This document shows, in pieces, positions 4,308 to 58,970 of a DNA stretch of 61,693 bases. Source of the DNA: a virus. Location: IMG/VR virus record IMGVR_UViG_3300047497_000011, positions 1 through 61,693 of that record. One strand, written 5' to 3'. The number at the start of each line of letters is the position of its first letter. Position 1 is the stretch's first letter. The notes below the pieces were generated by a model, which saw only the letters and a list, made by a program, of their open reading frames with translations, had not been told where the DNA came from and did not search any database. The position numbers were made by a program, and so were the translations under genes.

Positions 4308-5828
4308 ATTACCGAGTTCGTCCGCCCATATCTCTATCCCAAACAGCTCGATGCAATGTTTTGCCCCGAGCGTTACGGGATCATAGAGGCATCGACCAAA
4401 TCGGGCAAGACCGTCTCGGCCATCGCTTGGATCATCGAAAAGGCGCTCGGCGGGAAGGCCGGCCACAACTTCTGGTGGGTAGCGCCGGGGTATAACCAGG
4501 CCGAGATCGCCTACCGGCGCATCAAAACCTCCCTCACCCGTGGGTCGTTTACCCCGTTCGACTCACCGACGCCGCGCATTCAACTCATGAACGGGGCTGT
4601 TATTTGGTTCAAGTCGGCCGACAACGCAGACGCCCTCTACGGCGAAGACGTTTACGCGGCGATTGTCGATGAAGCCAGTCGTGTGGCCGAGAGTGGCTGG
4701 CACGCCATCCGGTCAACGCTGACGGCCACAAGAGGTCCCGCCCGCCTAATCGGCAACGTCAAGGGCCGCAAAAACTGGTTCTATCAGCTTGCCCGGCGCG
4801 CCGAAGCTATGATGCTCTCCGAGCCTGATCCCGCGAAGCGTAGTATGCACTACGCAAAGATCACGGCAGACGATGCGGTATCTGGTGGCGTCTTGGACGC
4901 CGAGGAAATCGAAGACGCCAGGGCGGTGCTGCCCGAGTGGATTTTCCGCGAACTCTATTACGCGGAGCCGGCCGATGATGCGGGTAACCCCTTCGGCCTG
5001 GATCACATTCGCGCCTGCGTCTTCGAGGACGGTTATGTGGCCGAAGGCCCGGTGGTGGCGTATGGCATCGACCTTGCGAAGAAGCATGATTACCTCGTCA
5101 TCATCGGCCTTAACAAAAAGGGCGAAGTCGCAGCGTTTCACCGCTGGCGGGGTCTGCCTTGGCGGAAGTCTATCCGAGCTATCTGGGAAATCGTTGGTGA
5201 GGATACTCCGGCTCTTGTTGACAGCACGGGGCTCGGAGACCCGGTCCTTGAAGAACTCCAAGTCGAGCATGGGAACTTCATAGGATACCATTTCTCGCCG
5301 ACATCCAAGCAAAAGCTGATGGAAGGGTTGTCGGTTTCCATTCAGAGCCACGAGATCAAGTTTCCGAAAGGCTACATTAGCCAGGAACTTGAGTCGTTTG
5401 AGTATGAAGAGAGCCGAACCGGCGTGCGCTACAGCGCACCCGCGGGGCAAAACGACGACTGCGTGGCGGCGTTGGCACTGGCTCGGCAGATGTGGACGGA
5501 AGTCCAGCCCGGCACCAATTTGATCGACTACTACGCACAAGTGTCCGAACGGATGAAATCCCGTGCGCAGACGCTTCCGGATGAGCCGAAGCGCCCATGG
5601 GATACCGGCGGCGATACTGAAGTCGTTGTCGGCAACATCTTCGACAACGAACTCGACCTTGTGTATGAGCAGACCGTGGGGCGGGTGTTGGGCTCGGCCT
5701 CCCGTCAGTGCTGCGCCTGCGGTGAAGTCATACCGCGTGGGGCGCAAGTTTCCGACGGTGAACTCCTATGGCACCCCGCTTGCGCCGGGGCAGCGCCGAA
5801 GTTCTTACCGAACCGGGAGTATGCCTAG
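4308..5828 (+). CDS. terL: Terminase large subunit
   Basis: The packaging motor ATPase and headful nuclease. With the inferred start (ATT at 4308) the protein is 506 aa and begins with TEFVRPYLYPKQLDAMF. That holds the adenine-binding Q motif (YPKQ, residues 10-13) expected before Walker A (EASTKSGKT, 27-35). Walker B is VDEAS (about 120-124). The RNase H-like nuclease starts at YGIDLAKK (Asp about 255), continues at VDSTGLGD and ends near QNDDCVAALALA. The first ATG, at 4356, has no ribosome site and would cut off the Q motif. No ATG, GTG or TTG lies further up before the stop at 4248. The C-terminal 50 residues add a CxxC...HxxC zinc-ribbon-like piece (CCACGEV, HPACAG) that is not usual in TerL. 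Confidence 0.93.
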   Translation: MTEFVRPYLYPKQLDAMFCPERYGIIEASTKSGKTVSAIAWIIEKALGGKAGHNFWWVAPGYNQAEIAYRRIKTSLTRGSFTPFDSPTPRIQLMNGAVIWFKSADNADALYGEDVYAAIVDEASRVAESGWHAIRSTLTATRGPARLIGNVKGRKNWFYQLARRAEAMMLSEPDPAKRSMHYAKITADDAVSGGVLDAEEIEDARAVLPEWIFRELYYAEPADDAGNPFGLDHIRACVFEDGYVAEGPVVAYGIDLAKKHDYLVIIGLNKKGEVAAFHRWRGLPWRKSIRAIWEIVGEDTPALVDSTGLGDPVLEELQVEHGNFIGYHFSPTSKQKLMEGLSVSIQSHEIKFPKGYISQELESFEYEESRTGVRYSAPAGQNDDCVAALALARQMWTEVQPGTNLIDYYAQVSERMKSRAQTLPDEPKRPWDTGGDTEVVVGNIFDNELDLVYEQTVGRVLGSASRQCCACGEVIPRGAQVSDGELLWHPACAGAAPKFLPNREYA

Positions 5829-36140: not shown

Positions 36141-36290
36141 TTATTGGTTCCGTAGGAAGTCGATGACGATGAACATAATCGTCACATAGGCGACTAGCCA
36201 GACATAGGCTAGTCCGCCGAACTTTACCCACATCAACGCCTTGCGACGCCGAGAGCGGATGGCGTTCACGGCTTTATATGTGTTGAGCAT
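36141..36290 (-). CDS. 49-residue membrane protein
   Basis: The ATG overlaps the RNR stop (TGATG), so it is coupled to it. After a basic start (RSRRRKALMWVKF) comes a hydrophobic helix (GLAYVWLVAYVTIMFIVI). Last gene of the - arm. Function unknown. Confidence 0.55.
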   Translation of the reverse strand: MLNTYKAVNAIRSRRRKALMWVKFGGLAYVWLVAYVTIMFIVIDFLRNQ

Positions 36291-38014
36291 CAGCCACACT
36301 CCGTTTGTCCTGTGGAGGGATCAGGCGTTAGGCAGAAGTTGGCTTCGACAACGGACTTTGTCGGAACCAATAGCGCACCACGCTTGCCATCGACGTTGAA
36401 GGTAGCGCAGCCTTTACAGCCGAGCACCCAGGCTTTCTCGTAAACGGCCTTGAAGTCCGGCCAAGGCATAGCGCCCGTCATGTTGATGGTCTTCGATACG
36501 GCGCTATCGACGAACTCTTGCGCCGCGGCGAGAACGGAAATGTGTTCGTCGGCGGTTACATCGGCGGCCAGTTTGCCCTTTACGCCGAGGAAGGCCACTC
36601 CGTAATCTTGCACCGTGACAAGCTTTGCGCCGGTGGGGGTGTTGATTTGCCGAGTCAGCTCGTAGCTGAATACAGGCTCGATGCCGCCAGAGACGTTGTC
36701 GGCACACATGGAAATAGTGCCCGTCGGCGCTATGGAAGTCAGGTGGCTGTTTCGGATACCGTAGGTGCGGATTAGGTCCTGAACGTCGGGAGGCAAGCGT
36801 TTGATAAATTCACCTTTGAGGTAGCGTTCGGCATCGAACAACGGGAACGATCCCTTTTCCTTTGCGAGTAGGGCCGATTGCCGGTAACTTTCCGTGTTGA
36901 TGGTTGATAGCACCTTTCGTTCAAAGTCTAAAAACTCGGGACTGCCGTAGGCATACCCGCAGGCTTCGCCGGCGTTGGCTAGGCCCATGTCACCTAGACC
37001 CATGCGGCGCTTCGACAGCGCCTCGGCCCGTTGTTCTGCCAGCGGATACCGCGTGCGGTCGATGACGTTGTCCATGGCTCGGACAACTGGCGCAACGTCG
37101 GCTATAAGCTGATCGAAGTCGAAGTAGTAGGGGGCTTCGCCTACGGCAACAGGGCGGGCTTTTAAGTAACGTGGGAGATTGAAGGAGCCGAGCAGACAGG
37201 CCCCAAACGGCGGAAGCGGTTGTTCCCCGCACGGGTTAGTTGCCGCGATGGTTTCGCAATACCAGAGGTTGTTCATCCGATTGATCGTGTCAATGAAGAT
37301 AACGCCTGGCTCGGCGTAATCCCACGTCGAACGCATGATCTTTTCCCAGAGTTCGGCGGCATCGAGGGTTTGGTAGACCTTGTCGCCGAACCTCAGATCG
37401 AACTCATGGTGACCGGCAACGGCGTCCATGAACTCATCCGTTATTGCCAGGCTAATGTTGAACCCGGTTAGTGCCGTGCTGTTCTGCTTGGCGCGGATGA
37501 ACTCTTCGACGTCGGGATGATCCACACGCAGCACACCCATCTGGGCGCCGCGGCGATGGCCGGCGGATGCGGTTGCCAGACCCACGGCGTTGTAGATGTG
37601 CATGAACGACACAGGGCCGGAGCTTTGGCTGTAGAGCTTCCGAATAAGGTCTCCCCTGGGGCGAAGCGTGCTGAAGTCGTGGCCGATACCGCCACTCATT
37701 CGCATCGTAGCGCCAGCTTCCTTGGCCCTACCCATGATGCTGTCGTTGCCATCAACGAAGCTGTCGGCGATGGTGCCGCTGACGAAGCAGTTATAGGCGG
37801 TTACCCAACGGGATGAGCCGATGGCGCCTTGGATGCGGCCGCCGGGACAGAACCGCTGGGTGAGCAAGATGTTCCGAAAGTCATGATAGTGCTTGTCGTT
37901 GTCCTTGAGGCCGAAGGCTACTCGGTTCATCGCTTCGCGGAAGTCCTCGCCGGTGTTGCGATACTTCATCGCGTGGAGTGAGTCAGCAGCTTCCGTTTGG
38001 GGGCCATAGGTCAT
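36290..38014 (-). CDS. nrdJ: Class II (B12-dependent) ribonucleotide reductase
   Basis: 574 residues; AAAGGAACC precedes the ATG. It reduces ribonucleotides to deoxyribonucleotides. TAYNCFVSG (Cys76) holds one redox Cys, and NPCGEQPLPPFGACLLGSFN (260-279) holds the radical Cys262 and Glu264. MRMSGGIGHDFSTLRPRGD and GHRRGAQMGVLRVDHPDVEE are hallmarks of the adenosylcobalamin class. The C-terminus keeps a Cys pair (FCLTP, TECG) for re-reduction. No small NrdB-like subunit is seen nearby, as expected for class II. Palindrome copy 7 lies 55 bases before the start. Confidence 0.9.
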   Translation of the reverse strand: MTYGPQTEAADSLHAMKYRNTGEDFREAMNRVAFGLKDNDKHYHDFRNILLTQRFCPGGRIQGAIGSSRWVTAYNCFVSGTIADSFVDGNDSIMGRAKEAGATMRMSGGIGHDFSTLRPRGDLIRKLYSQSSGPVSFMHIYNAVGLATASAGHRRGAQMGVLRVDHPDVEEFIRAKQNSTALTGFNISLAITDEFMDAVAGHHEFDLRFGDKVYQTLDAAELWEKIMRSTWDYAEPGVIFIDTINRMNNLWYCETIAATNPCGEQPLPPFGACLLGSFNLPRYLKARPVAVGEAPYYFDFDQLIADVAPVVRAMDNVIDRTRYPLAEQRAEALSKRRMGLGDMGLANAGEACGYAYGSPEFLDFERKVLSTINTESYRQSALLAKEKGSFPLFDAERYLKGEFIKRLPPDVQDLIRTYGIRNSHLTSIAPTGTISMCADNVSGGIEPVFSYELTRQINTPTGAKLVTVQDYGVAFLGVKGKLAADVTADEHISVLAAAQEFVDSAVSKTINMTGAMPWPDFKAVYEKAWVLGCKGCATFNVDGKRGALLVPTKSVVEANFCLTPDPSTGQTECG

Positions 38015-38544: not shown

Positions 38545-39738
38545 CTATTCGTTTCCGAATGACGACGTTGGTAACTTTACGGCGGGTATCCACTCGTCGG
38601 GATACATACCGCGGCGGATGTAGCCTGTCTTTTCCGCTACGTCTATCAGACGGCTGATTTTGTCTGACGGCACCCTGCTGTGCAGGAACTCATACATTTG
38701 TTGCGTGCTGAGGGGTTTGCGGTCCGAGAGCTTAGTCCGACTCCACAACATATAAAGATGATAGTGCATATCGACGATAACTTGGGAGTCGGACTTTGCG
38801 CCCATGGCGCGGAATATGTCCGGCATGGTTTTTTCGGCCTCAAGCAGCCAGCTTTGCGCCCGTTCAAAGTCTTCAACAAGGACTCGGAGTTCCGCCCCGC
38901 GTGACGCGGCGCTAATCATAGCGAGTTTGACCGTGTGTAGTGCCCGGCGGCCATTATAGTGTTGCAGCTTGCTGTGGGTTGGGACGGGCGGCAGGCCAGC
39001 TCGGTTCCAAGCGTTGATCTCGTCTATGGCATTCTTAGACCAGGAGAACTCGCCCTTTAGTTCAAACCGTTTGGTTAGTTCGGATTGAAGCAAGGGTGAA
39101 TTGACCGTGACAGTGGAGAATAGGTCCTTTTGCATGCTGGAGTCGGCATAGATCATAATGAGCCGGCTAGTGAAGCCCATGCCCCAGGCTTCTTCGGGCA
39201 GGATGCTGTTGAGGAAGTCGGGCTGTGTGCCGCACAACAACACCAAATGGGGCCTGTTGATCTCAAGGGCGCCGCTACTGCGACGTTCTTCCGTGTAGAT
39301 CGGCGGGCTATCGAAGATGTTGTTGATGGCCGAGAGGAACTCGGTGTCGTGGCGGGCGAGAAAGACGCCGAACTCCGAGACAGCGACGTTCATGGCCGAG
39401 AAGGAATAGGCTAGGCCATGGCCGTTCATGACGGTGCGGAGTGAGCGCGCCAGCACATCCATGAGCGAGGCTTTTGTGACGTTGTCTGGCGAGAGGTTTA
39501 GACCGTTGATGCGGCTCCACAAGTCTCGGACAGGACGTATGGCTAGGGTTTTGCCGCTTGCTGGTGGTCCTACCAACAACGTATAGACGTGCGGGTATAT
39601 GGCTCCGCCGGCCAGGTTTGTCCAAACCTTCCGTTCTAATACGCCAGACACAGCCGTAATCGCCGTCCACAGCCGGTATATTTCCGGCGACGGTATGGCC
39701 GCAGTCTCCCGCACATAGTCGTCAATCCAATCGGGCAT
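38545..39738 (-). CDS. P-loop ATPase, primase-helicase-like (DUF3987-like)
   Basis: 397 residues from ATG 39738; a TTG 15 bases earlier is possible. VYTLLVGPPASGKTLAIRP carries Walker A (57-64). FSAMNVAVSEFGVFLAR is a likely Walker B region, and LVLLCGTQPDFLNSILPEEA a sensor-like strand. The C-terminus looks winged-helix-like (LSTQQMYEFLHSRVPSDKIS). This layout fits phage DUF3987-type replicative ATPases that act with the polymerase. It lies directly downstream of the polymerase gene. Confidence 0.7.
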   Translation of the reverse strand: MPDWIDDYVRETAAIPSPEIYRLWTAITAVSGVLERKVWTNLAGGAIYPHVYTLLVGPPASGKTLAIRPVRDLWSRINGLNLSPDNVTKASLMDVLARSLRTVMNGHGLAYSFSAMNVAVSEFGVFLARHDTEFLSAINNIFDSPPIYTEERRSSGALEINRPHLVLLCGTQPDFLNSILPEEAWGMGFTSRLIMIYADSSMQKDLFSTVTVNSPLLQSELTKRFELKGEFSWSKNAIDEINAWNRAGLPPVPTHSKLQHYNGRRALHTVKLAMISAASRGAELRVLVEDFERAQSWLLEAEKTMPDIFRAMGAKSDSQVIVDMHYHLYMLWSRTKLSDRKPLSTQQMYEFLHSRVPSDKISRLIDVAEKTGYIRRGMYPDEWIPAVKLPTSSFGNE

Positions 39739-39745
39739 AATAAAC

Positions 39746-39919
39746 TCAATCAATCAAATCGGTATTGTCGTTGGCGTTGGCGTAGCCGAACTCTACGCTC
39801 ATAGCAAACTGACCGGCATAAAAGCCGTCATCATACCCTTCGTAGTAAGCGGCTTGTATGGCAAGCCGAGTTAGAGTTTCTGCAATAACGAAGGCGCAAA
39901 GTAATAGAACTGCGTTCAT
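39746..39919 (-). CDS. 57-residue protein with N-terminal membrane helix
   Basis: AGGAAA lies 6 bases before the ATG. Residues 1-17 (MNAVLLLCAFVIAETLT) are a signal or anchor helix; the rest is short, acidic and aromatic (YYEGYDDGFYAGQFAM). It ends 8 bases before the ATPase ATG. Function unknown. Confidence 0.55.
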   Translation of the reverse strand: MNAVLLLCAFVIAETLTRLAIQAAYYEGYDDGFYAGQFAMSVEFGYANANDNTDLID

Positions 39920-39928
39920 CGCCGTTTC

Positions 39929-41386
39929 CTACTTTCTCTTGAACTTCCTCAGACCCTTTGGGTTCTTTTCGGGAATACCTTTTTCCTCATCGCCGGGAAC
40001 GTAGTTGCCCCAGTTATAGCCGATCTTGGCGTCGGTCGGCACGTAGAAGATACGCCCATTTGGCGCACGGAGCGGGGTTTCTAACAGTGCCTGCGCCCGA
40101 GGGATGATTTCTTGCGGGTCCAGGTCTTCGGGAAACTGGAAGTAAATCGCATCATGGACTTGCGCGAGAAGTTGGACCTCGGGCATTTGTTTCCAGACTC
40201 GATACATGCCGAGGTTGAGGTTGTCGGCTGTAGGTGCGGCTGCCAGAAACGCCAAGCCTTTGCGGAGGGTTTCATCTGCATCCGTTCGATCGAAGAAATC
40301 TCGCACCCGGCCGTGTATGGACGTCAGCCGTTTCTTGGTTTGTAGCTCGCCTGCCGTCCAGGCGTGCCACTTCTGTATGGCCGGGAACGCTTCAAAATAA
40401 AGTTCTTGGAAGGGTTCGACCAAGGCCAACGGAATATGGATCATCTTCGACAGCGTTGTGGCTTTTCCGAGGAAGTTGGTTCCATGCCCCAGGCGCTTAC
40501 AACAATCTCGATAGGTGTAGTGCCGATAGAATGGCCGCTCCGCTATCTTGCGATCTTTTTTAATATCTCCCGTCCAACCAAGATTAGGCCAAGTAAGCCG
40601 AGCCACAGCGGTATGCAGATCGGAAGACTCACAAGCATCAAGGTATCGCCAATCATCAAACAATACGCCGCACATGAAGCCGACCATGCGGCTATCGCTT
40701 TGCTCAGCGTCGATGCCGACGAGGATGTGTCCTGGATCGGCGATGAGGATGTGGCGCAGGCTTTCGGTGATGTTCTGTAGATTTGTTCCCGTGCCTTCTG
40801 GCGACTTGGATGACGAGAACCGAGCCGACTTCGTGCCGCCGATATTATATGACGTCCGCATCCGCCAGTCACGGTCAACCTCCGTTTCAAGCACGTTGAG
40901 GGTTTTGAGTTGGTCTCGGAAGTCGAGGACGCTGGCGGCAATCAGCCGAGCGGGGAAGTAGTCTTCGATCTGTTCGATAGTGTCTCGGTTCATCTGGAAC
41001 TTCAATTCCCCTTTGACGTAGGATTTGATTTCCGGAATGCCGATACGACCGTAGAACAGTTCTTTTAGTTGGATGGAGGAGTTCGGATTAAGGTCCTTGT
41101 CCATCACCGCATTGGAGAGGGTGTTGATGATGTGGGTGAGACGGTCCAGGTTGCGTTTGGTTTCGGCTATGCCGAGTTCACGGGCGCCAGGATCGACACG
41201 GAAGCCACGAAGCATCATTTCTAGCACCGGGCCTTGCATGGCGCGCTCAAAGCTATAGGCGGGCTCTGCGGCGAGTGCCTGTTCCGAGAGCTTCTGAAAT
41301 ACCTCATACGTCAGGCAACAGTCCAGAGCGTTATAGATTTGCTCGGAACCGCTGTCGCCTTCGAGATTGTGAGAGCCGATTAGCAA
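39929..41386 (-). CDS. DNA polymerase family A, polymerase part of a split enzyme
   Basis: 485 residues; TTG start with GGAG 7 bases upstream. It has all three polymerase motifs: A at VGIDAEQSDSR (Asp226), B at RDCCKRLGHGTNF (Arg293, Lys297) and C at QVHDAIYF (His411, Asp412). TSYNIGGTKSARFSSSKSPE is the usual segment before motif A. The first 30 residues contain YNALD (Tyr18, Asp22), which is Exo motif III of the proofreading domain. Exo I and II are in the separate gene at 42546-43610. So the exonuclease domain is divided between two polypeptides. Confidence 0.88.
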   Translation of the reverse strand: MLIGSHNLEGDSGSEQIYNALDCCLTYEVFQKLSEQALAAEPAYSFERAMQGPVLEMMLRGFRVDPGARELGIAETKRNLDRLTHIINTLSNAVMDKDLNPNSSIQLKELFYGRIGIPEIKSYVKGELKFQMNRDTIEQIEDYFPARLIAASVLDFRDQLKTLNVLETEVDRDWRMRTSYNIGGTKSARFSSSKSPEGTGTNLQNITESLRHILIADPGHILVGIDAEQSDSRMVGFMCGVLFDDWRYLDACESSDLHTAVARLTWPNLGWTGDIKKDRKIAERPFYRHYTYRDCCKRLGHGTNFLGKATTLSKMIHIPLALVEPFQELYFEAFPAIQKWHAWTAGELQTKKRLTSIHGRVRDFFDRTDADETLRKGLAFLAAAPTADNLNLGMYRVWKQMPEVQLLAQVHDAIYFQFPEDLDPQEIIPRAQALLETPLRAPNGRIFYVPTDAKIGYNWGNYVPGDEEKGIPEKNPKGLRKFKRK

Positions 41387-41423
41387 AGTAAAGCTCCTCA
41401 GTATGGCTTTAAGCCCCGACTAG

Positions 41424-41603
41424 CTATGCCTCGTCGTCGGGAAGATACAATTTAGAGAAGTAGCCGCAGGCTTCATTAGGACAGAAGACGTAGGGACCAT
41501 ACCCTCCACCGGCGAGCCCAAAGCCGTGTTCGGTTCTAGCCCCGCATTGCAGGCAGTTGTCGGGCAATGCTGGTTCCGATTGCTTTCGCTCCACGTTTAC
41601 CAT
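41424..41603 (-). CDS. Small zinc-ribbon-like protein, 59 aa
   Basis: The ATG at 41603 overlaps the preceding stop. CLQCGARTEHGFG and later FCPNEACGYFSKLY give a CxxC...CxxxxC ribbon. The acidic end is LPDDEA. It lies between the two parts of the polymerase. A nucleic-acid or protein-binding role is possible. Confidence 0.6.
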   Translation of the reverse strand: MVNVERKQSEPALPDNCLQCGARTEHGFGLAGGGYGPYVFCPNEACGYFSKLYLPDDEA

Positions 41604-41815
41604 GGCTGTTCGTCGGCCCTGTCTCCGAGGACCCAGCCCACACCGTCCTTCCATTCGGCGTTGAAGTAGGCTTTCTTGGCGCCGTTCATGGCGACATAGG
41701 CCGCATCGGGTAGGTCTTGGAGGGTTTTGTTCCGGCGGCCTTCGGCGTAAATGAATGCTTCCCGGCTGGCTTCGAGCCCTTCGTCTAAGGGGAGTTGAAC
41801 TTTGACAATCGGCAT
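41597..41815 (-). CDS. Hypothetical protein, 72 aa
   Basis: The ATG at 41815 has AAGGAG 9 bases upstream and overlaps the stop of the interrupted gene before it (TAATG). The sequence VKVQLPLDEGLEASREAFIY is strand-helix, ending GWVLGDRADEQPW. No family recognised. Confidence 0.6.
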   Translation of the reverse strand: MPIVKVQLPLDEGLEASREAFIYAEGRRNKTLQDLPDAAYVAMNGAKKAYFNAEWKDGVGWVLGDRADEQPW

Positions 41816-42009
41816 TAGATTAGCTCCTTTTCCATTGCAAGCCATTCGGGCATAGTCATTTCCTTGGCGTCGGGGTCCCATTCGACCTAGGACTTCGGCA
41901 ACCAAACGGACTTATCCGCGGCGGCGAACAGATAGGCCGCAGCGGTTTCGTGTTTGACGATGCCTGCGATGTCGGTGAGCTTGTTACCGTCGCCCTTACG
42001 TGTTACCAT
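41815..42009 (-). pseudogene. Small gene interrupted by an in-frame TAG
   Basis: From ATG 42009 (AAGGAAA 7 bases before it) to TAA 41815-41817 the frame would encode 64 residues, but codon 41 is TAG (41887-41889). Before it: MVTRKGDGNKLTDI and a stretch ending DKSVWLPKS. After it: VEWDPDAKEMTMPEWLAMEK. The two sides read as one protein of a common small phage type in which Gln is expected at the break (LPKSQVEW). CAG to TAG is a single transition. It may be a nonsense mutation or a readthrough gene. Overlaps with both neighbours place it in the operon. Confidence 0.6.
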
Positions 42010-42349
42010 CGGAGTTTCCTTTTAGTTTGTCCAGAGTGTCTAACCACACTCGTGTATAGTCTATCTTGGCTTCACGCCGTGTGATGATATGCGTGAAATC
42101 CAGGTTGAAACGGTTGATGACAAGGAAACACATTGCCTTAACGTCGGCAAGTTCGTCCTCTAGCGCCTTCCTATTGGATTTGCCCGTGTCTGGGTCGATG
42201 CCTTCAAGGCCCTGACATTGGATACGGCCGATGATCGACACGAGTTCGCCCAGTTCTTCTTGGAGCTTGCCGAACGCAGCGAGGTCACCGGGATCGGAAA
42301 GCGGTATCCAGATGGAGGGGGCCTTTTTCGGAATGTCGTCGGTTTCCAT
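41996..42349 (-). CDS. MazG-like NTP pyrophosphohydrolase
   Basis: 117 residues. FGKLQEELGELVSIIGR and KALEDELADVKAMCFLVINR carry the ExxE and ExxD metal-binding helices of the all-alpha MazG superfamily. IITRREAKIDYTRVWLDTL resembles the C-terminal helix. It would hydrolyse dNTPs and clean or reshape the nucleotide pool. Overlaps the interrupted gene by 14 bases. Confidence 0.7.
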   Translation of the reverse strand: METDDIPKKAPSIWIPLSDPGDLAAFGKLQEELGELVSIIGRIQCQGLEGIDPDTGKSNRKALEDELADVKAMCFLVINRFNLDFTHIITRREAKIDYTRVWLDTLDKLKGNSDGNT

Positions 42350-42351
42350 GG

Positions 42352-42549
42352 CTATGCCATTCCCTTTTCTAGGGCGGCTTTAAGAGCTTTGAAAGCCTCT
42401 ATGTTTTTAACCATCTTCTCCTGTAAATCCCGAGAGTGTAGTGACTGTAGACCTGCCAAGCCGTATGCGATATTTGCTTCGCAGTTCTCCATAAGAAACT
42501 CGGCAAGCTCTTTGCTTAGTTCTATAATAACAGGCGGGTTGTTGCTCAT
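42352..42549 (-). CDS. Hypothetical helical protein, 65 aa
   Basis: The ATG overlaps the stop of the glycosylase-exonuclease gene (ATGA). All-helical, with ELSKELAEFLMENCEANIAY and a final Leu/Lys helix. It separates the two polymerase parts together with four other small genes. Confidence 0.6.
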   Translation of the reverse strand: MSNNPPVIIELSKELAEFLMENCEANIAYGLAGLQSLHSRDLQEKMVKNIEAFKALKAALEKGMA

Positions 42550-43610
42550 TCGTCCCTCTTGAGTGTGTCGCCTTTGCCGCGCATTAGCTTCCAGGGGCGT
42601 TCGTCCGAATAGATGCTCCCGAGGAAGCCAAGGCCCTTTAGCATTTCCGGATACAACGCATGGTGCAACAACATGGTATCATGTTCGCACATCGTTGGGC
42701 GCAGCCCCGCTCGGAGCAAGTGCGTGAGGTCATAGATACCGTTTTGGAAGATTTTGGGCACGGGCTTACGCAAAGCCCGATCCAACAGTTTCCAGGCGTC
42801 CATTTCTTCGATTACCGTGGGCCAGTAGCTTCCGCCTGGCTTGTTCTCGTCGAAGAACGGTATAACGATGGCGTCGTCATGGCTTCGGGCGAAACCAACC
42901 ATGTCAATCATCTTGGTGTGGTTTTCGATGTCAACGGCATAGAAGTCCGCCGGCCGGTTCAACCATTGGCGGATTTCGGCCAGTGTTGGGTTGACCGTCA
43001 GCCAGCGGGGCACACGTTTGATCTCGGGCGATGCAGCTTCGCGGGAAGCTTTCTCTAGGTCCGTGAGGACGATGGGGCGAAGGTTCCATTGGCGCAGGAC
43101 AGCGGCAGGGTGGTAGGTAGGTAGCACCTTCACGCCTAAGCGCGTCGAGCGCAGAACTGTGCCCCGCAGCGCACTGATTTTCGTCTGGCCCAGGAGTGCC
43201 CAACAGGCTGTATTACCGAACGCAACACATAGGTTCGGCTCAAGCGCCGTTACTCTCTCCCAAAGGGTTTCAACGTGGAAGCGAAGCTCGGGGCGGAGGA
43301 ATTTACCCGTCACCAACGGTGGAAGGGTTAGGTCACCCTCTTTCCGATTGGTAAAGAAGGTTTTTATATCGTTGCCTTCAGGCTTGGCGTTGAAAACGTT
43401 GGCGATCTCAATGCCGTGGTTATCCCTCAAGCTTTTCCAATAGGCGATCATTTCGTATTCACTTGGCCTATGGGCGGAGACCCTCGGTGCCAGGCCGATC
43501 TCGCTCAACATGAGCGACAGCTCGAAACCCGAGTAGCCGACAAGGGCATGCTCGAACAAAGCTTCCCGAGCACCCCAGGCTTCACAACAGAGTAACATGC
43601 GGATGGGCAT
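42546..43610 (-). CDS. Uracil-DNA glycosylase fused to first part of a proofreading exonuclease
   Basis: 354 residues. Residues 5-175 are a family 4/5-like uracil-DNA glycosylase: CEAWGAREALFEHALVGYSG (in place of GEAPG), NVFNAKPEGND, CVAFGNTACWALLG and TYHPAAVLRQ. Residues about 222-354 are the first part of a DnaQ-like 3-5 exonuclease: Exo I AVDIEN (Asp227, Glu229) and Exo II FQNGIYDLTHLL (Asn290, Asp294), then CEHDTMLLHHALYPE. It stops at GDTLKRDE, just where an intact enzyme would continue into Exo III, which sits at the start of the gene at 39929-41386. Confidence 0.85.
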   Translation of the reverse strand: MPIRMLLCCEAWGAREALFEHALVGYSGFELSLMLSEIGLAPRVSAHRPSEYEMIAYWKSLRDNHGIEIANVFNAKPEGNDIKTFFTNRKEGDLTLPPLVTGKFLRPELRFHVETLWERVTALEPNLCVAFGNTACWALLGQTKISALRGTVLRSTRLGVKVLPTYHPAAVLRQWNLRPIVLTDLEKASREAASPEIKRVPRWLTVNPTLAEIRQWLNRPADFYAVDIENHTKMIDMVGFARSHDDAIVIPFFDENKPGGSYWPTVIEEMDAWKLLDRALRKPVPKIFQNGIYDLTHLLRAGLRPTMCEHDTMLLHHALYPEMLKGLGFLGSIYSDERPWKLMRGKGDTLKRDE

Positions 43611-44190: not shown

Positions 44191-45693
44191 CTAGTCTTCC
44201 TTCCGAGACTTGGCTGACGCCGCACGGAGTGTGCGGGCTTGTTTGGTCCGAGTGAGCGCCACGGCGGCGTAGTTCGGGTCTAGTTCGATGCCCAAGACTG
44301 CCTTGGCACCGAGGTCTTCCGCTGCGCGAACGGCGCCGCCGGAGCCACAGGTCGGATCAAGGAAAGTCGTTGTTTCGTCCACAAGCATGGACAAGAAGAA
44401 CCGAAGCATCGACTCGGGCTTCTGCGACGGGTGGATTTTGTTCGATACGGTCGGGGCGGCGTAGTAGTTTGCCGAAGACTTGGCGAGCGGGCGGTTGCCT
44501 CGGACTGCGAGCAATGCCGTATCATACAGCCGACGAGGATAGGTTGTGGCGGTGCCAGGCACTACACCGCGGCCGCCTCCGCCGCCTTCGGACTTGCCCC
44601 AGATCAGCGGGTGATCGTGGACCATCAGGCCCGCCATGCGGAGCTTTTGGACCGTCAGAGTATAAAAGTTCATGTTGAACCAGAATACCAGATGGGCCGA
44701 ATAGCTCATGATGCGGTCAAGGTTGTCCGTCAGGCCCTTGAGCAAGTCCCAATAGATTTCTTCGTGGTTGTCGTAGAAGTCTTCGGTATCGACGTTGTTC
44801 ATCGCCCCCGAGGATGCGTCGCCTTTGTAGTTGCCGTATGGGAAGTCACAGTGGATAAGGGAGAACTTAGGTCCGGAATAGTTCTTGGCCCATGCTAGGA
44901 AGTTAGCGCAGATGATTGGTTCGTCCGGCAGAGCCGTAACGGCCGACGGTGCTTTGGGTGGGGGGTTGGTTATGTCCGAAATGATAACTTCATCGTTGGG
45001 GCCGTCGTTTGCTTCCAGCTCCTGCTCTGCCGCTTCGTCAAACGTAGTGACGGCACTGGTAACGGTGAAGTCACCGAGAACCGCTGCTTCATCCGCCGCC
45101 CTAGTGCCAGTGACGACCTCGCCGAATACCGTAGCGCCATTGGCAACGATGTCGGCGACGATACTTTCGGCCTTACGCTCGGCAAACTTGTGGAGTGCGT
45201 TGTAGGCTTGTTCGATGCTATCGACGGCCGCAATGCGCGGCGAGTCAATGTTGTCATAAACGTGGAGGATTTTCCTCACATGGGTTACGTGGAGCGACAG
45301 CTTTGTTGCCGTGTCGTCGATCTTCCACTTCTTCTCTTTGGCGGTTAGGAGCCGGTGCAGCCTGCCGACAGCCTTGACGTGATCCCGCCAGACAAGGTCT
45401 TTGCGTTCTACGTTTTCGATCAGTTCGAGTAGTTCGGCATCCTCGTCCGACATATTCTCGTGGATGAGGACAGGGATTTCGGCGAGCTGAACGGCTAGGG
45501 CCGCTTGAAGCCGACGTTCGCCAGCGATGAGAACGATCTCGCCGTTTACACGTCGGGCGATCAGGGGTTGGATGATACCGTTGGCGGCCACCGTTGCTTT
45601 TAGTTCCTCGAAAGAGGCAATGTTGGCCTGCCGTTGGCGGGTATCCCGCCGGATAACAATGGTCTTGGGATCGACGATGTGTTGTTCGGGCAT
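44191..45693 (-). CDS. ParB-like domain fused to DNA methyltransferase
   Basis: 500 residues; GAGGAAAC precedes the ATG. Residues 1-100 are a ParB/Spo0J N-terminal domain (LIARRVNGEIVLIAGERRLQ, with GERR 58-61). Residues about 100-200 contain helices including an HTH-like part (DTATKLSLHVTHVRKILH). Residues about 260-490 are a beta-class methyltransferase with motif IV DFPYG before motif I FLDPTCGSGGAVRAAEDLGA, and NKIHPSQKPESMLRFFLS as usual. It methylates adenine N6 or cytosine N4 in DNA, perhaps protecting phage DNA. Palindrome copy 8 lies 51 bases before its start. Confidence 0.88.
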   Translation of the reverse strand: MPEQHIVDPKTIVIRRDTRQRQANIASFEELKATVAANGIIQPLIARRVNGEIVLIAGERRLQAALAVQLAEIPVLIHENMSDEDAELLELIENVERKDLVWRDHVKAVGRLHRLLTAKEKKWKIDDTATKLSLHVTHVRKILHVYDNIDSPRIAAVDSIEQAYNALHKFAERKAESIVADIVANGATVFGEVVTGTRAADEAAVLGDFTVTSAVTTFDEAAEQELEANDGPNDEVIISDITNPPPKAPSAVTALPDEPIICANFLAWAKNYSGPKFSLIHCDFPYGNYKGDASSGAMNNVDTEDFYDNHEEIYWDLLKGLTDNLDRIMSYSAHLVFWFNMNFYTLTVQKLRMAGLMVHDHPLIWGKSEGGGGGRGVVPGTATTYPRRLYDTALLAVRGNRPLAKSSANYYAAPTVSNKIHPSQKPESMLRFFLSMLVDETTTFLDPTCGSGGAVRAAEDLGAKAVLGIELDPNYAAVALTRTKQARTLRAASAKSRKED

Positions 45694-56625: not shown

Positions 56626-57432
56626 TTAGGTCTCCGTTGTTTGGGTTGTGAAGCGATTGATTTGGCCTTGGACCCAGGCCAAGGGATCGGCGAGTAGTGG
56701 GTCACTGATATGCGCTGCGCCGATGAACAGCGTATCCGCTTTGCGGTAGCCAAGGCGGGCCGTTAAGTTGTCGTAGTAACGCTCTGGTGCGCCGTAGAGA
56801 AAGCCCCTGGGCCAGCCGCCGCTGAAGTTATTGAGAGTTCGGGCCATATCGTAGGTGATACGTCTGGCGTAGCCGGCGGATGTTAGCATCCAACAGGCCG
56901 TCGCCAAGTCGAGCGGCGTGGTATTGATGCGGTTGATGATGACGGTTTCGCCCGAGCCGTCTTTTGGCCCGTCTAGCATGGCAATGGCACAGAGGTTGAC
57001 GGGACGAAGCCGCGATAGCGCCATGGCGGCGGCGAGGATAACGATGCCACGGCGTTCTAGGACGGCGGACGATACGCCGGCCGAGCTTGTCGTAACCGTT
57101 AGGATGTTGACTGGCGCACGTTCGTCCGGAACGTGGACTTGCCGCCGCATGGGCGTGGGCAAGCCCGCAAGAACGTCAGGGACCCAAGGAAACGCGCCAG
57201 CGGGGGCACGCTCCCAGGCTCGGCGTGGGGTCTCTATCGCCAGATCAAGCTTGGCTAGCATAGCCTCCGCTTGCGGCACCAAGGCGGCGTTGCCGCTTTC
57301 GGCATAGCGCGCCGTGTCCGCCGGGCTTTCGTGGTTATACCAGGCGGAGCCCATGGGGCTGCCGTTGCGTAGGCCGCCGCTGGCAAACCAGGCCGAGCGC
57401 AGCTCTGCGAGCGAAGCGTAGTGCTTTATCAT
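56626..57432 (-). CDS. Unknown protein paired with the CobS-like ATPase, 268 aa
   Basis: The ATG overlaps the stop of the ATPase gene, so the two are made together. VNILTVTTSSAGVSSAVLER, IVILAAAMALSRLRPVNLCA, ETVIINRINTTPLDLATACW and KADTLFIGAAHISDP give alternating strands and helices like a Rossmann or von Willebrand A fold, without a clear metal motif. In CobS/CobT and MoxR systems an ATPase works with a vWA partner, so this could be the partner (inference). I think it belongs to a phage-specific DUF. Confidence 0.6.
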   Translation of the reverse strand: MIKHYASLAELRSAWFASGGLRNGSPMGSAWYNHESPADTARYAESGNAALVPQAEAMLAKLDLAIETPRRAWERAPAGAFPWVPDVLAGLPTPMRRQVHVPDERAPVNILTVTTSSAGVSSAVLERRGIVILAAAMALSRLRPVNLCAIAMLDGPKDGSGETVIINRINTTPLDLATACWMLTSAGYARRITYDMARTLNNFSGGWPRGFLYGAPERYYDNLTARLGYRKADTLFIGAAHISDPLLADPLAWVQGQINRFTTQTTET

Positions 57433-58970
57433 GCTGCGTCCTCCGCAAGTGCGTTCGCTAGCGCGTTGTAGTCAGTGTCAGCATCATCTTCCGACAGGAG
57501 TAGGTCATCCCCCTCGGAAATGATGTCTGGCGTTGCCGCCACCGTTGCCTGCGGGGTAGCGTATTCTTCGATCGCCGAGACCTTGGGCAGCGAGGCAACA
57601 ACGTCGGCACAGGCGGTGAGTGTGTCGTCCAGCCGAAGGCTGTTGTATTGCGCCTCGTCGATGCCGGCCTTGAGAACTTGTTCCGCCGTTTCCTCCGGCG
57701 TGAAGCCCGCTTGCAGCAAGGCTAGGCCGGAGAAGGTTGCCCTCGGTGAGACGATGACTTTTAGGCCCTGCCGGGCGGCGGCAGACCGCGCCGCTAGGAT
57801 GACGTTGTGCCAGGCTTCGCCAAGCCGGCCCCATTGTGCCGTGGCGACGGCCTTCTCAAGAGCCTCGTCCACGGGCCAGTGGATTTTGGGATGGAAGCGG
57901 TCAAGTGACGCCGCATCAAGCTTCGTGCGGCCCACGTAGTCGTTCGTTGCGCCGTGGCCCCATGTGTTGGCGCAGGCGATAACGCAGGCGTCGGGATGGC
58001 GGCGGACTAAGCCGCCAGGGGTCGAGACGAAGCCGTTGGCTAGGGCGGAATTGAGCGCCAATAGGGCCGATGGCAGCCAGTTATCAATCTCATCGGCAAC
58101 ATAGATGCCGCCGCCGGTGTAGATGCGGAGGAACTCGGTGCTGACTACTTCGCCCTGGGCGTTGCGGAAACCGAGGACTTTGTAATCGGCGTCGAGGGAG
58201 CCATCAGCGCCGAACGGAAGTGACATGGCCTTGGCGACATTTTCCGCCGCCGTGGTCTTGCCGGAGCCGGTCGGGCCGGTGAGCCAGACGTTCAGTCGAA
58301 AGCCCCGATGGTCACGAGCGTTCACGGCTCGGAGGAGTTTGGGGAAGCACTTGTGCTGAAGGCCGATGTTGGTGGCGCTTGCGCCGCCGCCAGCGGTGGA
58401 GACGATTTCAATGCGCCGAGGCGGCATCAATTCGTCCACAAGGTTCCGCGCTGCCGAGCGGGCTAGTTCGCGGATTTGGTCCTTGGCGGTCGGGTCGAGG
58501 CGGATAACCGCGCCGTCGAGTTTGGCCTGGGTCAGCTTGCCGACGGTGCCTTCGATCTGGCGGAACAAGTCTTTGAGCCAGCGTTCCGTTTGAGCGGCGG
58601 TCATACCGGCGGCGGCGCCGCTTGCGCTGTTACCTTCCGACTGAATGCCATCGCCTGCGCCAGCCTCGGCATCGGCGCTGTCGTCATCCATGTCGCCGAG
58701 GAGTGCCCAGTGCGGGTTCACTCGGTTCCGCCAAGTGTGCAGATAGCCGCTTGCCAGGTAGGCTTTGACGAGCGACTGATCGAGGGCTTGATTGGCGTCC
58801 TTCGGCGGGATGCCAGAGGAAACGAGAAAATTGTGGATTAGGAGCCGAGTGTTGGCACGGTCCGTCTGCATGAAGCTATAGAGCTTCGTCTCGTTTTCGT
58901 TGTTGCGGGTGTTAGGCGGAAAGCCGAAGGCTTTGATGCAGTTCTCGGTGTTGTATTGGAGGGATGGCAT
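57429..58970 (-). CDS. CobS/MoxR-like AAA+ ATPase
   Basis: 513 residues. Walker A GPTGSGKTT (232-240), Walker B GIYVADEIDNW (288-298), sensor 1 VIACANTWGHG, then DRFHPKIHWPVDEAL with a likely Arg finger. An acidic N-terminal region (about 90-130) and an acidic C-terminus (LLLSEDDADTDYNAL) flank the core. The AAA+ core is typical of phage CobS-like proteins, proposed to remodel a partner complex. Coupled with the gene at 56626. Palindrome copy 11 lies 55 bases before its start. Confidence 0.85.
   Translation of the reverse strand: MPSLQYNTENCIKAFGFPPNTRNNENETKLYSFMQTDRANTRLLIHNFLVSSGIPPKDANQALDQSLVKAYLASGYLHTWRNRVNPHWALLGDMDDDSADAEAGAGDGIQSEGNSASGAAAGMTAAQTERWLKDLFRQIEGTVGKLTQAKLDGAVIRLDPTAKDQIRELARSAARNLVDELMPPRRIEIVSTAGGGASATNIGLQHKCFPKLLRAVNARDHRGFRLNVWLTGPTGSGKTTAAENVAKAMSLPFGADGSLDADYKVLGFRNAQGEVVSTEFLRIYTGGGIYVADEIDNWLPSALLALNSALANGFVSTPGGLVRRHPDACVIACANTWGHGATNDYVGRTKLDAASLDRFHPKIHWPVDEALEKAVATAQWGRLGEAWHNVILAARSAAARQGLKVIVSPRATFSGLALLQAGFTPEETAEQVLKAGIDEAQYNSLRLDDTLTACADVVASLPKVSAIEEYATPQATVAATPDIISEGDDLLLSEDDADTDYNALANALAEDAA

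Follow-up and report, generated by a model that had tools for sequence, protein, structure and literature searches.

The replicative DNA polymerase of the T4-like Aeromonas phage 25 is made as two pieces, gp43A and gp43B, which co-purify and have polymerase activity, and the essential enzyme NrdA of Aeh1 has been split at a functionally critical region by the homing endonuclease mobE into pieces that are active (PMC2988022). We describe here a pair of genes that together encode a family-A DNA polymerase in the IMG/VR virus record IMGVR_UViG_3300047497_000011, and by "the window" we mean the whole stretch analysed, positions 1 to 61,693 of that record (61,693 nucleotides). The cut in this polymerase runs through the metal site of its exonuclease and is fixed over a large clade, and the enzyme differs from gp43A/gp43B, which is of family B. 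Aeh1 NrdA is like the locus as we read it in the kind of site that was divided and in the agent proposed; it differs in being another enzyme, in still holding the endonuclease in its gap, and in belonging to one phage, while the present split is an ancient state of a whole clade. Family-A polymerases in two open reading frames (ORFs), several of them with a small gene between, are found in the OM43 phages MEP401 and MEP402 (PMC10580990), in Vibrio phage VS-ABTNL-3 and in the loci L218, L223 and L229 of our own collection, but in all of these the cut lies in the polymerase domain, and the first piece holds an undivided exonuclease domain. A Klenow-related DEDDy exonuclease of the phage type is found in ExnV1 and in the Pol I of Thermus phage G20c (PMC9629493); the latter is intact, and ExnV1 is an exonuclease-only protein, thought to be a truncated polymerase, that carries all of its Exo motifs on a single chain. 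Known split phage enzymes are oddities of single phages or small groups; here one break in a catalytic site has persisted in hundreds of diverse phages. This split stands apart from known phage genes in pieces in three ways: it divides the exonuclease metal site, it is fixed throughout a deep clade, and it comes with a new terminal head on the second protein. A literature search, which reached few subscription journals, found no description of this split.

Sequence comparison and fold prediction, taken together, indicate that this clade-wide gene pair is a real and ancient two-gene family-A polymerase, very probably reassembled with one two-protein proofreading site. We propose that the two genes would give two subunits, bound non-covalently. 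Subunit A would consist of a uracil-DNA glycosylase (UDG)-like domain and the exonuclease core with motifs Exo I and Exo II; the new N-terminal strand, the Exo III helix and the polymerase domain would make up subunit B. The Exo III helix of B would pack across the exonuclease sheet of A and so complete the DEDDy metal site, allowing proofreading in trans. If so, these phages provide a natural test of how an active site survives its division.

A polymerase divided between two genes

Both reading frames, their start codons and the ribosome site of the second gene are where the preliminary description of this DNA had put them (coordinates are collected in Table 1), and its residue numbers for the Exo motifs are correct: these residues are alignment-invariant, and the first piece fits Klenow through the same motifs. 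The first piece matches Pfam UDG (2.1e-8, 34.8 bits against a cut-off of 24.3) and phrog_17 (1e-21), and its family profile matches TM0511 at 7e-22, homology that places a family-4-type member of the UDG superfamily, and a predicted glycosylase-like domain, in this protein. Its exonuclease part aligns to positions 15-122 of the Klenow chain 1d9d, and this alignment stops after 'DTML'. The second piece matches Pfam DNA_pol_A (2.5e-21) and phrog_17 (1.2e-45), its family profile finds Klenow and Taq in a search of the PDB with values down to 2e-42, and by these matches it is assigned to DNA polymerase family A; the residues D226, R293, K297 and D412 of its polymerase motifs are invariant wherever aligned. 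Its Klenow match starts at chain position 170, near Tyr497. The junction left unaligned between the two matches, between Exo II and Exo III, we take to be approximately Klenow residues 446-492, on the assumption that chain position 1 is about residue 324. All of the DEDDy motifs (the Asp and Glu of Exo I, the Asp of Exo II, and the Tyr and Asp of Exo III) are present but distributed over two chains, and the two pieces combined cover the UDG, exonuclease and polymerase regions with no essential part missing by comparison with intact homologues.

These intact homologues, the UDG-exonuclease-polymerases of Microcystis phage Mel-JY34, of MW202489 and of PaBG (gp205, PMC7412058), are of family A and have the same three domains in the same order on one polypeptide. 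Mel-JY34 and MW202489 are homologous over both pieces and have similar replication neighbourhoods, and in them the loop WKDEGK...WxYN is continuous. None of the three has the two features that flank the break in the split proteins. The first of these is the C-terminal tail of the first piece, which is KRDE, KKDD or alike in nearly all split relatives; the second is the N-terminal head of the second piece (17 residues in the window, an MKIIxT-type strand in relatives), which has no counterpart in intact relatives and may serve as an interface. The TTG at which the second piece begins is a real start, since close relatives start at the same codon, with ATG in L001, L002 and L021 and TTG in L003/L004.

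We searched IMG/VR, GTDB contigs and phage records for loci that hold both pieces, and found 367 loci (239 distinct pairs) in which both are present, separate, and divided at the same loop. They come from independent metagenomes, several contigs of metagenome-assembled genomes and one isolate, Caulobacter phage Kuura; no fused polymerase of the split clade was found among the 367. Grouped below 80% identity, the 137 full pairs of an earlier subset gave 76 clusters. The two genes remain close to each other in the loci found, and those single-piece contigs that were checked terminate near that piece. Chance is excluded by the recurrence of the split in 239 distinct pairs, and a sequencing or assembly error, which the preliminary description had allowed for, is ruled out by the recurrence of the split in 367 loci. 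In the Kuura genome (OQ067476.1) the exonuclease half, Kuura_029 (L026 4207-5316), is annotated as 'hypothetical protein', and labels of this kind make such phages seem to lack proofreading.

At one extreme the two genes overlap by 8 nt and at the other they lie 3,314 nt apart, with a median gap of 405 nt; they overlap or abut in 28 of the 239 distinct pairs, and in L095 the ATG of the second piece lies inside the 3' end of the first gene. Stop codons of the first pieces also differ among loci (TGA, TAG or TAA). These observations bear on the idea that the two pieces are rejoined before they act, through RNA splicing, a split intein, readthrough or frameshifting. Phage polymerase genes are often interrupted by introns or inteins, I-PfoP3I being an example (PMC3428280), but the window region and 14 loci gave no Rfam intron match, and no intein-like sequence was seen at the ends of the pieces. 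Splicing, inteins and readthrough are not a general route here, since the space varies from an 8-nt overlap to 3.3 kb and holds unrelated cargo, and inteins, readthrough and frameshifting were rejected on the gap lengths, the ordinary genes carried, the varied stops and the overlapping starts. Rejoining as a whole is, in our judgment, exceedingly improbable.

Conservation, coupled evolution and predicted fold of the proofreading site

The preliminary description had noted that all key exonuclease residues are kept, and this holds across the relatives compared: every one of 234 distinct pairs keeps D227, E229, N290 and D294 in its first piece and Y18 and D22 in its second, a constancy equal to that of the polymerase catalytic residues. 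Close pairs show a median ratio of nonsynonymous to synonymous change (dN/dS) of 0.094 in the exonuclease part of the first piece and of 0.087 in the second piece. One apparent exception, L102, in which the second piece begins after Exo III, has its Exo III upstream in another frame, the gene being broken in that one contig. L226, where the gene might be taken for split, has one in-frame stop and no split.

The coupled evolution of the two proteins was studied by a mean-field analysis of 224 paired sequences (effective number 171), in which N denotes the first protein and C the second. The top between-protein pair, N239-C23, ranks sixth among 162,165 pairs of all kinds. Residues 1-45 of C occur in five of the ten top between-protein pairs (9% expected; p=0.001) and in 37 of the 200 strongest between-protein couplings, where 18 would be expected (p=3e-5), both p values being indicative, as pairs were treated as independent. 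The richest run of 27 columns is C3-C29, and the sum over C18-34 is unmatched by any run of columns shifted from it. The couplings N249-C20, N239-C23, N287-C27, N287-C30 and N310-C34 are spaced as in a helix, and the leading residues C20, C23, C27, C30 and C34 would share a single face of the Exo III helix. Serine at N239 was gained about five times on the tree, always with Ser or Thr at C23, and the N239-C23 coupling is thus not explained by a single clade.

A model of both pieces together was obtained with AlphaFold2 from the homologue L097 by in-frame read-through; the single chain that was folded runs from the first piece over 48 spurious residues into the second. This joint model has a pLDDT of 88.8 and a pTM of 0.84. 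The spurious linker is disordered in it, and a strand forms in the second-piece head. Foldseek places E. coli Pol I first among its PDB matches (target TM 0.77 over 700 columns); the predicted fold is Klenow-like. When the L097 second piece is modelled alone, its polymerase domain still folds confidently, but residues 1-40, at about 84-95 in the joint model, reach only 62-75, and the head no longer forms a strand. We read the comparison as support, not proof, for the meeting of the two pieces, because the alignments behind the joint and lone folds differ (48 and 30 rows). Three further points also weigh against this assembly: the joint model is one covalent read-through chain from a homologue and not the two chains of the window, it shows the first piece with a disordered KRDE tail, and the coupling map is noisy, with several high couplings (for example N326-C354 and N207-C455) far from the exonuclease site.

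Two other accounts of the proteins have to be considered here. Proofreading might have been lost, the first piece acting as a glycosylase or other factor while the second polymerises alone with its Exo residues as relics, and the confident lone fold of the complete polymerase domain speaks for this. Relics, however, would decay, while the six residues are invariant over a deeply diverged clade and changes in the Exo III helix track those in the first protein. Loss of proofreading is unlikely given this invariance in 234 of 234 pairs and a dN/dS of about 0.09 in both pieces; decay was rejected on the same two grounds, and with the co-variation added we consider this account very improbable. Alternatively, the first piece might work independently, as a stand-alone UDG/exonuclease or with some other partner, the Exo III helix of the second piece having been repurposed. 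There is a precedent in the exonuclease-only ExnV1, which folds alone (PMC9629493), though ExnV1 includes Exo III, and the first piece described here is without the Exo III Tyr/Asp pair; the Exo III residues of the second piece are moreover invariant and coupled to the first piece, and the two genes stay near each other. We hold such independence to be a shade less probable still. The assembly of both pieces into one exonuclease site is highly likely on this evidence, and the preference of the preliminary description for assembly over loss is backed by the Exo III-helix couplings, by the joint fold, and by the lower confidence of the head when the first piece is left out. Physical binding and exonuclease activity would follow from such an assembly. 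It is conceivable, though we think it rather doubtful, that association with the UDG/exonuclease subunit makes fidelity tunable, in that the second piece alone would be error-prone and exonuclease-deficient and the complex would proofread. The pair may be of use in engineering as a natural split polymerase with separable proofreading.

Origin of the split

Relatives with a single intact gene, which the preliminary description had suggested looking for, do exist; about 30 contigs make up their clade. We built a maximum-likelihood tree of 107 taxa with IQ-TREE, leaving out long-branch taxa; PaP2 (L030) was dropped since FastTree had put it beside the long-branch split pair L022/L024, a suspected long-branch effect. 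The 77 split taxa of this tree are monophyletic with 83% ultrafast bootstrap support, and a single origin of the split clade is thus likely, short of firm proof. We read the split as ancient and inherited.

Locus L201 is nested among the intact members with support of 100 in the same tree. It has an HNH ORF (5043-5480, phrog_3377 9e-28) that starts within the end of the first piece and reaches up to the Exo III part, and we take it to be an independent insertion into the same Exo II-Exo III loop. HNH genes are also present in the gap of a cluster of eight loci within the split clade (L100 type). In L221 the cut falls immediately ahead of Exo I and the gap holds an HNH ORF (1343-1684, Pfam HNH_3 2.8e-10), and L227 has the same cut with equal gap size. 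L201, L221 and the similar L227 may show gene splitting caught at a recent stage. Critical sites in replication genes are targets of homing endonucleases, and the split products can remain functional (PMC2988022); HNH insertions in polymerase genes, together with recurrent cuts, fit this published pattern. We lean, with moderate confidence, towards a homing-endonuclease origin as the likeliest route, in which a free-standing HNH endonuclease would have entered the Exo II-Exo III loop and later been lost or replaced, the gap then becoming a site of gain and loss of small nucleotide-metabolism and other genes. Speaking against this origin, most split members, the window included, have no endonuclease in the gap, and the argument draws on cases outside. 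A route with no endonuclease, for example a stop/restart mutation in the loop that gave overlapping genes into which cargo was inserted later, would agree with those gaps and with the 28 pairs that overlap or abut with no insert; it is a quite plausible alternative, though the HNH genes in this very gap in the eight split loci and, independently, in L201 outside the clade argue the other way, as do L221 and L227, which appear to record the same process just before Exo I. Should the homing-endonuclease origin be right, the locus would be a worked case of an endonuclease insertion that turned into a permanent two-subunit enzyme.

Other cuts were seen in related genes. L064 (3854-7455), a member of the split clade, has a second cut before Exo I that apparently leaves the polymerase in three parts (UDG; Exo I/II; Exo III plus polymerase), and its first gap holds an HTH-like ORF. 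A recurrent cut in the polymerase domain, at profile position 213/215, is present in L218, L222, L223, L224, L229 and L029; we group the polymerase-domain cuts of VS-ABTNL-3 and MEP401/MEP402 with this recurrent one. The gap of L229 holds a methyltransferase-like gene that resembles one from split-clade gaps. In L182 (MW202554, 1658-4361) the polymerase is cut after Exo III, cleanly between the exonuclease and polymerase domains.

The gap and other genes of the window

Table 1. Positions in the window of the two polymerase genes, their motifs, the gap between them and a downstream neighbour.
Feature	Position	Strand	Remarks
First piece, 354 aa	43610-42546	-	ATG start; ends KRDE-TGA; UDG-like domain and exonuclease part with Exo I and Exo II
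Exo I of AVDIEN	D227, 42932-42930; E229, 42926-42924	-	First piece
Exo II of FQNGIYD	N290, 42743-42741; D294, 42731-42729	-	First piece
C-terminal tail KRDE and TGA	42546-42560	-	First piece
Intervening stretch, 1,159 nt	42545-41387	-	About five small ORFs (65, 117, 40, about 72 and 76 aa)
MazG-like gene (phrog_4856)	42349-41996	-	Inside intervening stretch
phrog_8389 gene with amber interruption	42009-41820	-	Inside intervening stretch
Shine-Dalgarno-like GAGGAG	41399-41394	-	7 nt upstream of the TTG of the second piece
Second piece, 485 aa	41386-39929	-	TTG start; head, Exo III helix, family-A polymerase domain
N-terminal head, 17 aa, MLIGSHNLEGDSGSEQI	41336-41386	-	Second piece; MKIIxT-type strand in relatives
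Exo III of YNALD	Y18, 41335-41333, to D22, 41323-41321	-	Second piece
DUF3987 primase/helicase-like gene	38545-39753	-	Downstream of the second piece; same order in relatives

The preliminary description had counted five small reading frames over about 1.16 kb between the two polymerase genes. The size stands, but the 40-aa ORF is not a gene in its own right: it is part of the phrog_8389 gene, broken by an amber codon. This TAG (41889-41887) replaces a Gln that is conserved in relatives (WLPKSQ), and past it the frame stays open to its normal end. The amber may reflect a single mutation, a population variant or suppression; it does not imply a general recoding, since other genes in the window terminate in TAG. 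Beyond the genes named in Table 1, those in the gap of the window are unknowns, and scans with Pfam, phrog and Rfam found no endonuclease, intron or intein in it. The gaps of relatives carry genes for ribonucleotide reductase, dCTP deaminase, dNMP phosphatase, MazG-like protein, DNA ligase, methyltransferase and NADAR, and some carry an HNH endonuclease. The minus-strand module of the window is filled out by a ribonucleotide reductase gene (36290-38014), by a gene for a ParB-methyltransferase fusion (44191-45693) and by a CobT-like gene (porphyrin biosynthesis, phrog_249) at 57429-58970 on the minus strand, which adjoins an unknown phrog_1909 gene.

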